Assembly: GCA_035710745.1 (NCBI GenBank)
Contig: DASTCX010000013.1
Span: 62,001-126,000, forward strand
Direction of reading: 5' to 3'
Origin: Candidatus Eremiobacteraceae bacterium
Lineage (GTDB): Bacteria; Vulcanimicrobiota; Vulcanimicrobiia; Eremiobacterales; Eremiobacteraceae
DNA length: 64,000 nt
Both the position numbers and the translations under genes were made by a program. Positions within the stretch are counted from its first letter, which is position 1. Every line of letters starts with the position of its first letter. Below are positions 23,450 through 31,706 of the stretch, in pieces. The notes under the pieces are model-generated. The model did no database searches, had not been told where the DNA came from, and was given only the letters and a program-made list of their open reading frames with translations.

Positions 23450-23524
23450 TGGAGCGGAAGACGAGATTCGAACTCGCGACCCTCGCCTTGGCAAGGCGAT
23501 GCTCTACCGCTGAGCTACTTCCGC
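23450..23524 (-). tRNA. tRNA-Gly(GCC)
   Basis: Acceptor GCGGAAG pairs with CTTCCGC; anticodon stem TCGCC/GGCGA encloses TTGCCAA, anticodon GCC; T loop TTCGAAT. The CCA end is encoded (TGG at 23450-23452 on the plus strand). Confidence 0.97.
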
Positions 23525-23538
23525 GCTGCATGCGCGAG

Positions 23539-23556
23539 CGTCGGCTTGCGCCGACG
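23539..23556. other. Small perfect hairpin upstream of tRNA-Gly
   Basis: 7-bp stem CGTCGGC/GCCGACG with loop TTGC, just 5' of tRNA-Gly on the minus strand. There is no T run, so I cannot call it a terminator; it may be part of the tRNA leader. Confidence 0.4.
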
Positions 23557-23643
23557 TCAGTCTCATGTTATGCGGGTGGACCTGTTTTCCTTGCGGGGAA
23601 ACGCCGTGTCGCGGCGAACGCCGCACACATGACGGGCGGGGCG

Positions 23644-23763
23644 ATGTTAGGCACGGTCTTGGTGATCGGCGGCGCCTTATATGTCGCAGTGTTCGCTTGG
23701 ATCACACAAGCGCGTGTGCGCGCGCTCGGCCCGGACAAATACCCCGAGGATCACGGCCACTGA
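23644..23763 (+). CDS. Tiny single-pass membrane protein, unknown
   Basis: A 39-residue plus-strand frame from ATG 23644, MLGTVLVIGGALYVAVFAW then a basic turn (ITQARVRALG) and an acidic, histidine-ended tail. It has one strong transmembrane helix with positive-inside topology (cytoplasmic C terminus). GGCGGGG ends 2 bases before the ATG; the upstream ATG at 23629 would add MTGGA. It lies between tRNA-Leu and tRNA-Gly, both on the other strand. It could be a chance open frame; the helix-plus-charged-tail pattern argues for a real small protein. Confidence 0.4.
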   Translation: MLGTVLVIGGALYVAVFAWITQARVRALGPDKYPEDHGH

Positions 23764-23788
23764 GTTCGGCCGTTTCGTTTGGTCGGTG

Positions 23789-23870
23789 TGGGCAAGAAAG
23801 GACTCGAACCTTCACGGGTCGCCCCACTGGAACCTAAATCCAGCGCGTCTGCCAGTTCCGCCACTTGCCC
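23789..23870 (-). tRNA. tRNA-Leu(TAG)
   Basis: Acceptor GGGCAAG/CTTGCCC; anticodon stem CTGGA/TCCAG around TTTAGGT, anticodon TAG; long variable arm typical of Leu. CCA is not encoded (discriminator A is followed by CAC). Confidence 0.95.
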
Positions 23871-23902
23871 ATCGCACTTTTACAACTCGACCGAACTTAC
23901 AG

Positions 23903-23924
23903 CGGTCGAGCTTTTGCTCGACCG
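23903..23924. repeat. Palindromic repeat, copy 5 of the GGTCGA family
   Basis: Arms CGGTCGAGC / GCTCGACCG around TTTT, followed by GAGACGGCC. It lies between the BON-domain gene and tRNA-Leu. Confidence 0.85.
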
Positions 23925-23940
23925 GAGACGGCCTCCCCAA

Positions 23941-24330
23941 TCACACGCCAGTGGAGTGCGGACGTACTTGAAGCAGATTGCGCACCGAACCGTCGGGTGA
24001 TGCCGCTCGCGCGAGCTTGTCGGCGAAGCGCCACTCCGCGTCGTTCTCCACGACGCCGTGTAATAGGATGGTCGCGCCGTGCGCGTCGACCCAGATGCGC
24101 CGCTTGCCGAGGTTCGGATCGCCGCCGATCGCGGTCTTGAGGTTGTCGGTCGCGAGCACCGCGTCGACGCGCGACTCGTTCACCCAGCGTTGATAGCGTC
24201 CGAGTAGCGAGCCGATGTTCGCTACGGTGCGGCGCTTGAGCGCGACGCGTGCTTGCCGCGGCGCTGCCGCGACGCCGGTCGCCGATCCGAGGAGCGCTGC
24301 GGCGAGAATGCCCCAAGCGAGTTTCTGCAT
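23941..24330 (-). CDS. Secreted BON-domain protein
   Basis: 129 residues from ATG 24330 (MQKLAWGILAAALLGSATG), chosen over the GTG nine bases upstream because it places the signal peptide at the very start. After cleavage near AAAPRQ, a single BON-like domain follows: VDAVLATDNLKTAIGG, RRIWVDAHGATILLHGVVEN and a helix ending GSVRNLLQV. BON domains occur in periplasmic and outer-membrane stability proteins such as OsmY, and bind phospholipid or attach to the envelope. The gene follows the 287-residue unknown gene closely and may be co-transcribed. The domain call is by eye. Confidence 0.65.
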   Translation of the reverse strand: MQKLAWGILAAALLGSATGVAAAPRQARVALKRRTVANIGSLLGRYQRWVNESRVDAVLATDNLKTAIGGDPNLGKRRIWVDAHGATILLHGVVENDAEWRFADKLARAASPDGSVRNLLQVRPHSTGV

Positions 24331-24388
24331 GGTCGCCACGGTGTTTCGGGGCGAGTCGGGGTTCTCCCGCGTTTGGCGGGTCGCTTGC

Positions 24389-25252
24389 TTAGGCGAGCGG
24401 GAGGTCGATCTCGGCTTTGGTCTGTGTGTCGTGGAACTCGATCAATTCTTGGAATCCGGGCACGGGTTCGCCGTTGCCTATCGCTTTGATGAAACGGCAG
24501 GACGCGAAGCGCGCGCTCGCCGTGGTGTAGCCCGCGTTCCAGCGGTCGAAGCGCTGCTGCTCTTGCGGCGTCTGGAACGGATAGGTGACCGGCGGTTCCC
24601 ACATCTTCATGCGCCAGGGTTTTGGCGTGAGGCGCGCGCGAAACGATTCCTGTTGTTTACATAGGTGCACGTAGATCGGATCGGATCCGAACTCGCGCAG
24701 CAGGGCGATGGATGTCTCGTCCGTAGCGCTTTGTGCAAGGTTCGTGACGATTGAGCGATAGCCGCCAGCGGTTTTGTAGAGGCGGAGCGAGAGACCCTTC
24801 GTCTCAGCGATTTGCGCTATCGAGTCCTCGATCGGCGTGCTCGCTTGCTGAACCACCGGTTGCTGCTTCTTGCCGAACAGCGACATCAAGCCCGAAGCTA
24901 TCGTCGTGACGGGCTTCGGCGGCGCGTCGTCGGAGTCGACATCGATGAACATCAGATCATTCGTGTTGAGGACAAGCGCGCCGTACACGTTCCGCGTCAC
25001 GATCGCCGTCGACGCACCACCCAATTGCTGGATGATAGGCTCGGGGATCGGCCGGTCGCCGTATTGATATCGCTGCAGTTTGGTACGACCGTCTGCGATG
25101 ATGGCGACAACGCGCTGCGCGGTTTGCAGCGCCATCGCGGCCGCGCCCTCAATGCTCTCGTTCGACCAGCCGCGCGCTGCCGCGCGGATTCGCCGACCCC
25201 GCCGGTCGGTCGCGTCCGCGGACTGCCTGGCCCAAAAACGAGCGAGCTTCAT
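24389..25252 (-). CDS. Conserved-looking cytoplasmic protein of unknown function
   Basis: 287 residues from ATG 25252 (MKLARFWARQSADAT). I do not recognise the family. No signal peptide or membrane helix. Visible features: a very basic N terminus (DRRGRRIRAAARGW), a cluster of acids in NDLMFIDVDSDD (99-109), a short hinge containing LFGKKQQPVVQQ, and a well-patterned C-terminal half with LRLYKTAGGYRSIVT (157-170), YVHLCKQQESFRARLTP (194-210) then KPWR, and FDRWNAGYTTASARFASC. The acid cluster followed by an R-Y-T-GG-R strand and a late FRARL-PKPWR block suggests a nucleotide- or nucleic-acid-binding enzyme fold, but that is only a guess. Upstream is tRNA-Lys; downstream is the BON gene. Confidence 0.6.
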   Translation of the reverse strand: MKLARFWARQSADATDRRGRRIRAAARGWSNESIEGAAAMALQTAQRVVAIIADGRTKLQRYQYGDRPIPEPIIQQLGGASTAIVTRNVYGALVLNTNDLMFIDVDSDDAPPKPVTTIASGLMSLFGKKQQPVVQQASTPIEDSIAQIAETKGLSLRLYKTAGGYRSIVTNLAQSATDETSIALLREFGSDPIYVHLCKQQESFRARLTPKPWRMKMWEPPVTYPFQTPQEQQRFDRWNAGYTTASARFASCRFIKAIGNGEPVPGFQELIEFHDTQTKAEIDLPLA

Positions 25253-25323
25253 CGCGTCGTTTGCTCCGCGATCCTGATATGGAAGACGTGGACCGGCGAC
25301 TTGCCGATCCACGTTTTATGCTC

Positions 25324-25399
25324 TGGTGCGTCGTGAGGGAATCGAACCCCCAACCAACAGATTAAGAGTCTGCTGCTCTACCAGTTGAGCTAACGACGC
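25324..25399 (-). tRNA. tRNA-Lys(CTT)
   Basis: Acceptor GCGTCGT/ACGACGC; anticodon loop CTCTTAA, anticodon CTT; CCA encoded. First on the coordinate scale of five minus-strand tRNAs in a row. Confidence 0.96.
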
Positions 25400-25472
25400 A
25401 TGCGGCGCACTGCATTCGACCGCTCCGCGCGGCGATTCCTATCCGCGCTTCGCGTTGTCCGTCGTGTGAAAA

Positions 25473-25543
25473 TGCCCCGTCCGAGAATCGAACTCGAATC
25501 AACCGGTTAAAAGCCGGATGCTCTACCACTGAGCTAACGGGGC
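25473..25543 (-). tRNA. tRNA-Lys(TTT)
   Basis: Acceptor GCCCCGT/ACGGGGC; anticodon loop CTTTTAA, anticodon TTT. The outermost anticodon-stem pair is T-T, a mismatch. No encoded CCA. Confidence 0.95.
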
Positions 25544-25549
25544 ACGCTG

Positions 25550-25623
25550 CGCGCCTGGACGGGCTCGAACCGCCAACCCTCAACTTCGAAGGCTGATGCT
25601 CTATCCAGTTGAGCTACAGGCGC
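25550..25623 (-). tRNA. tRNA-Arg(TCG)
   Basis: Acceptor GCGCCTG/CAGGCGC; anticodon stem TCAGC/GTTGA around CTTCGAA, anticodon TCG. Discriminator G, no encoded CCA. Confidence 0.95.
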
Positions 25624-25639
25624 ACGGGCGACGGACGCG

Positions 25640-25716
25640 TGGGGTGAATGACGGGGGTCGAACCCGCGACCTTCGGTGCCACAGACCGACGCTCTAACCA
25701 GCTGAGCTACATTCAC
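25640..25716 (-). tRNA. tRNA-His(GTG)
   Basis: Acceptor GTGAATG/CATTCAC with discriminator C73; the base before the 5' end (25717) reads G, giving the G-1 expected of tRNA-His. Anticodon stem TCGGT/ACCGA around CTGTGGC, anticodon GTG. CCA encoded. Confidence 0.96.
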
Positions 25717-25776
25717 CAGACGAGCCAAGCGAGGGATTTCGTTGCGGCGCGAATTGCGCCCTGGTCGAGGGTGACT

Positions 25777-25852
25777 CGCGCCCGGGGAGACTCGAACTCC
25801 CGACAAAACCCGCTTAGAAGGCGGGTGCTCTATCCAACTGAGCTACGGGCGC
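25777..25852 (-). tRNA. tRNA-Arg(TCT)
   Basis: Acceptor GCGCCCG/CGGGCGC; anticodon stem CCCGC/GCGGG around CTTCTAA, anticodon TCT. No encoded CCA. Begins 4 bases after the stop of the upstream secreted protein gene. Confidence 0.96.
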
Positions 25853-25856
25853 CCAA

Positions 25857-26762
25857 CTACGAATTCTTACACGTGACCGAGAATCTCGCCTTGTTCGACG
25901 TCAGCGCGTTCGGTTGAGCGATCTCGATCTCGACCCACCCCGGATAAACGTGCGACGGCGCGTAGTAGTTGCCGACACGCCACTCCGTCTGTACGGCGTA
26001 ACTGCCAGAGTCGTGAAACTTGAATGGTGGCAGCGCAACGCGCGAGCCGTCACTATGCCTGAAGGAGAACAGTGCGGTCACAGGTCCGTTGACTGTAACG
26101 GTTCCATAGAAATGGATCGTCGTCGGACAGTGGCCGACGTACTCGATCGGATCCGCTTCGAGGTACGCTTTCGTCACCCTGACCGATGTCGGCGTGCCGG
26201 GCGCAAGCGCCTCGACGGCCGCCGAGTCGACATAGAAATCCGCGCCCGGGCTCTGCCCGTAGATTATGAACATGTTTGCCGGCGATACACCGTTGCGCGC
26301 TTTCAACTCGATCCACTTGCCGGTGACGGAACTGCGCGCGTCGATGCCGGTGTTGCCGCCGTTACCCGTGCCGATGAAGACCGTTCCGGTCTTGACGAAG
26401 ACCCAGGCACTCGAAGTCACGTGCCCCGGCCCGGTTCCAATCGGGAGAAATGCTTGAACTAGTCCGCTACCGCTATTCGGTTTGTCGTCGGTTGTCACGA
26501 CATGGATCATCGACTTGCCACCGCCGCGCGTCGAAGGCATGAGCTCGGTCGTCGTGCTCCCGTTTCCGGTGTTGTATACGGTCCAGTGGGCAGCCGCTGA
26601 ATCACCGGTCGCTCCGGCGCCGTTCAAGACTGTCTGCTCGCCAGACGTGCTGACCTGGGCGAAGTCCGGGTTGGCGAGCATATTCGTCGTCGCCGCGGAG
26701 GCGGCACCGGCCATGGTCGCTAGCGCGAGAGTTGCGTAAATGCCGAAATGCCTGAACGTCAT
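25857..26762 (-). CDS. Secreted protein with two beta-sandwich-like domains, unknown
   Basis: 301 residues. Signal peptide FGIYATLALATMAGAASAA (about 6-24). The N-terminal part (MLANPDFAQVSTSGEQ, HWTVYNTGNGST, GSGLVQAFLPIG, SSAWVFVKTGTVFIGTG) has the jelly-roll look of a carbohydrate-binding module, as found in surface proteins. The C-terminal part (PIEYVGHCPTTIHFYGTV, GPVTALFSFRHSDGS, WVEIEIAQPNALTSNKARF) resembles an Ig-like domain with a Cys pair (GHCP and VTCKNS). No catalytic motif is seen. It lies between tRNA-Pro and tRNA-Arg(TCT) and reads in the same direction; the stop is 4 bases from the tRNA. Function unknown, likely envelope or extracellular binding. Confidence 0.7.
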   Translation of the reverse strand: MTFRHFGIYATLALATMAGAASAATTNMLANPDFAQVSTSGEQTVLNGAGATGDSAAAHWTVYNTGNGSTTTELMPSTRGGGKSMIHVVTTDDKPNSGSGLVQAFLPIGTGPGHVTSSAWVFVKTGTVFIGTGNGGNTGIDARSSVTGKWIELKARNGVSPANMFIIYGQSPGADFYVDSAAVEALAPGTPTSVRVTKAYLEADPIEYVGHCPTTIHFYGTVTVNGPVTALFSFRHSDGSRVALPPFKFHDSGSYAVQTEWRVGNYYAPSHVYPGWVEIEIAQPNALTSNKARFSVTCKNS

Positions 26763-26803
26763 GCGAGTATCAGTTTACCCGTTTTGTCTCTGACATATTG
26801 CCA

Positions 26804-26877
26804 TCGGGCGGACACGACTTGAACGTGCGGCCTCTCGCGCCCAAGGCGAGCGCTCTACCAGGCTGAGCTACCGCCCG
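26804..26877 (-). tRNA. tRNA-Pro(TGG)
   Basis: Acceptor CGGGCGG/CCGCCCG; anticodon stem CTCGC/GCGAG around CTTGGGC, anticodon TGG. Discriminator A, no CCA encoded. Its first ten bases overlap the end of the HNH frame. Confidence 0.95.
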
Positions 26878-27353
26878 ACATTTCCTCGTATTCGCAATTG
26901 CCAATTCCGTTGCCTTGCGGTTCTTCGCCGATGACAGTTCGCGCAGCGAACGTCGCATTTTGCCACCTCCATCTCGACCTGCGAAATCGAGACGCGGTTG
27001 TTGATCATGCGGCTGATGTCGCCTTGCTTGACGCCTCGGACGTGATCAAATTCCAAGACGATCAAGTCTCGTTCGCCACAGTCGACGCAAGGATGTTGAG
27101 ACAGGTAGTCGACTATGAACTCTCTTATCGATCGACGTGAAGCCTTATTTCGCGCGTATCGTCGAGAGTTGTGGAGCTCTTTGTTTCGTGCATAATGCGC
27201 TCTCGAGTAGCTGCGCTGACAGGGGATGCAATAGGAGCAGGGCTGCGGGTTAGCTATGGTACGGCTGGAATAAGCCGACAAAGGCTTATCTTTCAAGCAC
27301 TTCGGGCACCGCTTTACCCGCGCGACCACCGAAAGCAAGACCATCTGTTTCAT
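26868..27353 (-). CDS. HNH endonuclease-like zinc protein
   Basis: 161 residues. Two zinc-knuckle regions: CPKCLKDKPLSAYSS with CSYCIPCQRSYSR, then the HNH core CVDCGERDLIVLEFDHV ... CDVRCANCHRRRTA, with the first His of the motif in EFDHV and the last in NCHRRR. This arrangement is common in phage and mobile HNH nucleases, which cut or nick DNA. Its stop TAG is formed by tRNA-Pro bases, so the gene abuts and overlaps the tRNA by 10 bases. Base composition is somewhat less GC-rich than its neighbours (for example CGTATTCGCAATTGCCAATT near the 3' end), suggesting acquisition. No partner methylase or integrase is seen. Confidence 0.75.
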   Translation of the reverse strand: MKQMVLLSVVARVKRCPKCLKDKPLSAYSSRTIANPQPCSYCIPCQRSYSRAHYARNKELHNSRRYARNKASRRSIREFIVDYLSQHPCVDCGERDLIVLEFDHVRGVKQGDISRMINNRVSISQVEMEVAKCDVRCANCHRRRTARQRNWQLRIRGNVGR

Positions 27354-31508: not shown

Positions 31509-31610
31509 GACGATGGTGTGCCCGAGGTTCGCACCGAAGTACACCTGTCCTTTTGTCCCGCTCACATGGTGCGACACGTCGAGCGACACACGTCATAAGG
31601 GGAGGCTCGA

Positions 31611-31706
31611 GTCAGGACGAGCCGCGGCACCCGAAAGGTCCCACACGCCGCTGCTACCTTCCGGTCCTGACGGGATTAGCGGGTTTTCGTCGCGCGGGTC
31701 CTGACC
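31611..31706 (-). ncRNA. ffs: Small signal recognition particle RNA (4.5S type)
   Basis: About 96 nt. The ends pair (GTCAGGAC with GTCCTGAC) and the apical region carries the universally conserved SRP core, CAGGACCGGAAGGTAGCAGC, the domain IV symmetric loop and tetraloop region bound by Ffh. Exact ends are estimated from pairing. It lies just 3' of tRNA-Ser(GGA) on the same strand, an arrangement known in Gram-positive bacteria. Ffh itself is not in the window. Confidence 0.9.

Follow-up and report, generated by a model that had tools for sequence, protein, structure and literature searches.

The window analysed here is a 64,000-nucleotide stretch of a contig from a Candidatus Eremiobacteraceae bacterium. 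On its minus strand, the ORF P0001 at positions 24389–25252 encodes, according to the ORF list and its translation, a protein of 287 residues plus a stop codon, in exact agreement with the first-pass annotation. The three patterned segments that the annotation had singled out are all present as quoted: FIDVDSDD at residues 102–109, LRLYKTAGGYRS at residues 156–167 and FRARLTPKPWR at residues 204–214. An alternative GTG start at 25312 would give a product of 307 residues, but the ATG at 25252 is favoured because it agrees with the M1 of the family, which is present in all 79 alignment rows reaching the start. Comparison of the gene with a same-genus copy yields a dN/dS of about 0.18 over 246 codons, with 38, 14 and 77 differences at the first, second and third codon positions. 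The ORF is real and under purifying selection, and this selection, together with full-length homologues in other phyla, indicates a working gene rather than a chance reading frame. Sequence searches against Pfam, NCBIfam, PADLOC and the PDB returned no match for the protein, whose sole PHROG match lies at E 0.29; its earlier description as a member of no recognised family therefore holds.

The gene is situated between tRNA genes, with tRNA-Lys(CTT) (25324–25399) and tRNA-Lys(TTT) (25472–25544) directly upstream and tRNA-Leu (23788–23870) on the other side. The minus strand of the window carries 14 tRNA genes between 23450 and 39890, and eight of these fall within 23450–26878. A small SRP RNA lies at 31607–31706, and a 161-residue ORF with paired cysteines (26868–27353), which we take to be HNH-like in appearance, has its 3' end 11 bases inside tRNA-Pro (26803–26878). 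From the tRNA neighbourhood, the first-pass annotation had considered an RNA-related role possible. This was not borne out, as tRNA genes of any kind are found in only 7 of 80 related loci (L009, L014, L023, L026, L031, L047 and L057), at a distance of at least about 0.9 kb from the gene except in the same-genus L009. In a set of eight loci, tRNA genes occur in two, that of the window and the same-genus one, and four of the other six span only about 1.5 kb from the gene; neither of the two viral loci contains any. A conserved tRNA context was thus not seen in homologues, no RNA-repair neighbour recurs among those scanned, and a tRNA or RNA-repair context was rejected because tRNAs stand near the gene in its own genus only.

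Around the related loci, where genes were called by a simple longest-ORF rule, no recurrent partner was found: 124 of the 162 adjacent ORFs were compared with Pfam, and the commonest family appeared 3 times. The same holds for second neighbours (116 chosen by length, with seven close-relative loci dropped; 112 scanned), among which the commonest family also appeared 3 times. BLAST clustering of neighbours, performed without 17 loci that the adjacent-ORF set includes, gave clusters common to 6–7 loci that are close Pirellulaceae relatives, and two clusters of 5 loci each at mixed positions. A Mg_chelatase (ComM-like) gene lies upstream of the family gene in two genomes of one genus of the window's own family, adjacent to it in L012 and separated from it by one ORF in L003, and the competence-protein family PF03772 is matched in 2 of 124 neighbours; with so few cases, a competence link was set aside. 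PADLOC indicates a defence setting neither for the family nor for its neighbours: two models gave one weak match each (E 0.003–0.004) among the 81 members, and mad2 was the commonest model among the neighbours (3 of 124), the other 24 listed of 64 models appearing once each and being mostly methyltransferases. Ku and the family occur together in 4 of 149 planctomycete genomes (15 and 17 positives; Fisher p 0.07, uncorrected for kinship), a co-occurrence that is not significant, and a link with NHEJ was not retained. The window's own genome carries separate LigD-Pol genes.

The protein belongs to a family that is large, widespread, patchy and without a name. When 84,980 species genomes were scanned with a sequence pattern, 490 stretches matched and 462 of these encode relatives; the best 80 of the 462 were fetched and aligned with the window protein (81 rows). 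A separate alignment comprises 8 rows found without the pattern. Five of 41 close genomes, a count that includes the window's own, yielded relatives by sequence search, as did a plasmid of the cyanobacterium Fischerella and L008 (MT835675.1), a record from human faeces labelled Bacteriophage sp., in which the ORFs flanking the match look chromosomal to us (permeases, presumably a lipid kinase-like and a xanthine dehydrogenase-like protein). By record titles, family members are present in Chthoniobacter flavus Ellin428, Alkalicoccobacillus gibsonii and A. murimartini. Divergent copies with 28–29% identity to the window protein occur on two viral contigs, 137 and 197 kb long (L131, 7593–8516; L132, 7638–8564), near what we assume to be an ATPase-like ORF of 772–791 residues and a lysozyme-like ORF. 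The plasmid and viral copies are rare, and their N-terminus differs from that of the window protein. Counting the central genome in each case, the gene is found in 5 of 148 genomes of the window's own phylum, 15 of 149 of the phylum of L059 (Planctomycetota by title) and 1 of 150 of the Alkalicoccobacillus order. Each of seven genomes tested holds one copy, and one genome of the window's own family holds two. In a tree of 85 rows, 79 carry a phylum label taken from record titles, and the 12 labels need 26 changes where 11 would be the minimum possible; the tree was built by a quick method with 28 of 82 inner branches open, and in it the window copy clusters with Acidobacteriota copies (support 94, not starred). 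This patchy occurrence suggests horizontal transfer. Five planctomycete copies (G155, G163, G250, G279 and G288) are matched in two separate parts, interrupted between model positions 113 and 139, which suggests that the loop following the DxD strand carries inserts. No description of the family was found in the literature searched, which comprised one library, mostly titles and the starts of abstracts, and its motif letters were unmatched there.

Sixteen residues are invariant in all 81 rows: E71, N96, D104, D106, Y159, T161, G164, R166, D191, R205, R207, K211, R214, H274, D275 and L286. All of them except E71 are kept in a 9-row set with plasmid and viral copies, in which D104, D106, T161, G164, R166 and D191 are retained in 9 of 9 rows, including the plasmid, actinobacterial-like and viral-contig copies. 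The invariance of R205–K211 arises partly by construction, since these residues lie inside the search pattern, which sits within the basic block and by which 80 of the 81 rows were selected; yet RARL.PKPWR is also invariant in all 8 pattern-free rows, and the acids, R166 and H274–D275 lay outside the selection by pattern. Towards the C-terminus, C252 (24497–24499) is found in 80 of 81 rows, followed by H274–D275 (24428–24433) and the terminal L286–A287 (24392–24397; L in 81 of 81 and A in 80 of 80 rows). The terminal LA, which we had likened to an ssrA tag, was dropped as a proteolysis signal, given that the model has this end well ordered and that the viral and plasmid copies terminate in LV or LG.

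PMC5862659 gives the AEP motifs as hhhDhD/E (I), sxH (II), hD/E (III) and Rh on a flange strand (IV), and the order of elements in our models (DxD strand, helix, TxxGxR hairpin, helix, D, helix, basic strand) fits this scheme, the assignments of II, III and IV following from order and topology. The proposed motif I (FIDVD, residues 102–106; 24935–24949) forms a strand in the model, is preceded by a hairpin seen in alignment and model (residues 83–97; 24962–25006), and reads LMFIDVD in the hhhDhD/E form, its acid pair, to which the first-pass annotation had drawn attention, being conserved as D104 and D106 in 81 of 81 rows. The proposed motif II hairpin (residues 156–169; 24746–24787) has invariant T161 and G164-x-R166, with Arg where His is usual. 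In some AEP families, this His is replaced by Gln or Tyr, and, in the DR0530-like proteins only, by Arg or Lys (PMC5862659). D191 (24680–24682), which stands after a one-residue bridge in the model, is the candidate motif III acid; the residue before it is S, A, T or C in 80 of 81 rows, not a bulky hydrophobic one. In the basic block FRARLTPKPWR (residues 204–214; 24611–24643), R205 and K211 are six apart and would be the counterparts of motif IV and of the residue six further on. The same source names H166, K318 and H324 of human PriS, and its named pairs K318/H324 of human PriS and R231/N237 of PolpTN2 are each likewise six apart.

AlphaFold2 models were obtained for the window protein (pLDDT 91.9, pTM 0.87) and for L087 (pLDDT 92.4, pTM 0.87), the row of lowest mean identity in the 81-row alignment; the two draw on a largely common alignment and are not fully independent. 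Both models agree in an N-terminal beta-beta-alpha segment, hairpins, the DxD strand, a helix, the TxxGxR hairpin, a helix, D191, a helix and the RAR strand, and end in a C-terminal helix-strand-helix. Foldseek gave no match at E ≤ 0.001 for either model, its first row for the window protein being CAPP (E 0.18), with kinase chains alongside, and that for L087 HMG-CoA reductase. BFVD likewise held no match at E ≤ 0.001, the best (0.0037) being to uncharacterised proteins of Sulfolobales viruses. By VIA-align, which re-ranks Foldseek's own list only, AEP entries, counted by title, account for 25 of 50 rows and 16 of the top 17 for the window model (best Z 5.1, 122 aligned, rmsd 3.6), and for 44 of 50, including rows 1–22, for L087 (best Z 5.8, 130 aligned, rmsd 4.0). 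These entries span PriS/Pri1, LigD-Pol, CAPP, AsfvPrimPol, RepB', poxvirus and herpesvirus helicase-primases and PrimPolC; the MPXV E5, D5 and herpesvirus chains were counted as primases on our own assumption. The six remaining rows for L087 are HP0184, YpbH twice, an HSV polymerase, 6sga_FR and a dsRBD-type chain. For VIA-align, a Z below 8 may reflect no more than a shared arrangement of elements, and models lacking a clear match typically reached a best Z of 7 to 8. Since Z stays below 8 and Foldseek alone finds nothing, the argument for the fold rests on consistency across AEP clades, not on score, and an AEP-like fold is supported but not proven. The first-pass annotation had seen a vague likeness to primase-polymerase or nucleotidyl folds and had proposed structure prediction as a check. 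The primase-polymerase part is supported, with AEPs leading VIA-align for two models. Neither of the outcomes that the annotation had named as refuting came about, as no confident match to an unrelated known fold was obtained and the acid pair is invariant; the support is moderate (Z < 8, marginal profile comparison). In the rankings for both models, the primases are accompanied by PDB 2atz (HP0184 of Helicobacter pylori; Z 4.3 and 5.1), perhaps another AEP-like fold.

The sequence by itself does not place the family. No curated AEP model matches P0001 up to E 10, nor L003, L007 or L008, and no AEP model appears among the 25 listed of 28 Pfam families at E ≤ 1 for the 81 members; a match to PF02641 (DUF190) in 1 of 81 members (E 1.2e-4) was taken as chance. 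Because the motif II His is missing and AEP models give no match, the family is not filed under any named AEP family. Profiles were compared by hhalign with residues 70–287 as the core query, against LigD-Pol (12 rows), Prim-Pol (7), AEP-TOTE (13 of 20 loci), GGDEF (12 of 20) and dsRBD (16 of 20). The core scores above 150 of 150 column shuffles with Prim-Pol, aligning the DxD strand and the preceding hairpin, and is equalled by 5 of 150 shuffles with LigD-Pol; D104-x-D106 is placed on motif I of both, although these alignments are short and cover motif I alone. With AEP-TOTE, 48 of 150 shuffles score equally and the register is wrong, and with the whole 81-row alignment as query LigD-Pol is aligned elsewhere. 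The second half places K160-T161-A-G-G and R166 on the K-T/S-x-G-G and H of LigD-Pol, but 58 of 100 shuffles score equally, so that the hhalign register at motif II is not above chance. GGDEF, a non-AEP control, is equalled by 8 of 150 shuffles, does nearly as well as LigD-Pol and aligns on the same hhDhD strand. This control, the low Z scores and the presence of other chains (YpbH/MecA C-terminal domain, HP0184) at Z 2.3–5.1 are consistent with another palm or ferredoxin-like metal enzyme, such as a nuclease, cyclase or phosphotransferase, that would have only the beta-alpha-beta arrangement in common with AEPs. We regard this explanation as doubtful, as the highest-ranked rows are AEPs for two models and counterparts of the basic hairpin and flange residues exist in AEPs.

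Our comparison with named AEP systems reveals partial likeness to several of them. PriS/Pri1 entries are at the top of the VIA rows and have the same motif order (DxD, hairpin, D, helix, basic flange residues six apart), whereas the family has Arg at the motif II His and no PF01896 match, with 8–14% identity to PriS/Pri1 over 121–137 aligned residues. LigD-Pol and bacterial Prim-PolC (TIGR02778, PF21686), which have a repair role, are bacterial AEPs of similar size, in part stand-alone, and LigD-Pol has a K-T-x-G-G hairpin like that of the family; by comparison, LigD-Pol keeps the motif II His, and its profile comparison is equalled by shuffles as given above. Prim-Pol proper (PF09250) gave the best profile score of the families tried, but the family has no PF09250 match. 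The one DR0530-like primase tested, phage AH2 gp78, contains PF09250, PriCT_2 and DUF5906, the last presumably a helicase-like module; all three are absent from the family among the matches listed. An Arg or Lys in motif II, as proposed here, is reported for DR0530-like proteins (PMC5862659). CAPP, the CRISPR-associated Prim-Pol, whose active-site pair is given as D177/D179 in PMC8211822, heads the Foldseek rows for the window protein, with no E under 0.001.

The N-terminal beta-beta-alpha segment (residues 1–58; 25079–25252), delimited by the model and VIA rows, is aligned on its own by five VIA rows, four of them, by title, from dsRNA-binding or Dicer-type proteins (entries of TRBP, DCL3, Loqs and DRB7.2:DRB4). 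These rows, and the nucleotidyl/terminal transferase activity of the AEP PolpTN2 (PMC5862659), would suit an AEP-like but untemplated enzyme, namely a terminal or RNA/tRNA nucleotidyltransferase or an RNA-repair enzyme, perhaps aided by a dsRBD-like N-terminus. Such an enzyme is unlikely: the RNase III dsRBD profile does not match the N-terminus significantly (8 of 150 column shuffles as good, 14 columns aligned), the lysines of the dsRBD GxSKK loop are absent from the N-terminus of the window protein, and, among the loci scanned, neither tRNA genes nor RNA-repair genes recur beside the gene. A non-catalytic relative that only binds nucleic acid or nucleotides, to which the replaced motif II His could point, is very improbable, as the three candidate catalytic acids never vary across the 81 rows, which carry 12 phylum labels.

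On balance, the protein is probably a stand-alone metal-dependent nucleotidyltransferase with an AEP-like palm that carries out templated or priming synthesis, most likely in gap filling or repriming; the residue roles, activity, template and cellular role are those that we infer from the models and alignments. D104, D106 and D191 would hold two catalytic metal ions, and the triphosphate of the incoming nucleotide would be held by R166 of the motif II hairpin together with R205, R207 and K211 on the flange strand and just beyond it, an R-R-K set where PriS has H-R-H or H-K-H. The enzyme would then extend a chain, or begin one, on a nucleic-acid template, and its most likely task would be gap filling or repriming on damaged chromosomal DNA. 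We prefer this task over mobile-element replication because the gene stands alone, usually in single copy and with no fixed partner. More tentatively, the family may constitute a new stand-alone group of bacterial primase-polymerases that has reached, by horizontal transfer, at least 12 phyla as well as a plasmid and large viral contigs. In these enzymes the invariant Arg would stand in for the nucleotide-binding His to form an R-R-K clamp, and they would reprime or fill gaps without the aid of helicase, PriL or zinc modules.

In bacteria, replication is primed by DnaG, and the bacterial AEPs that belong to the PrimPol-PV1 supergroup are in almost every case located within integrated mobile elements (PMC5862659). 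The family described here is real, widespread and unnamed, and appears AEP-like in its predicted fold and motif order; it is not assigned to any named AEP family. If this holds true, an unnoticed single-domain, AEP-like polymerase or nucleotidyltransferase would be present, without a curated family, in hundreds of bacterial species.
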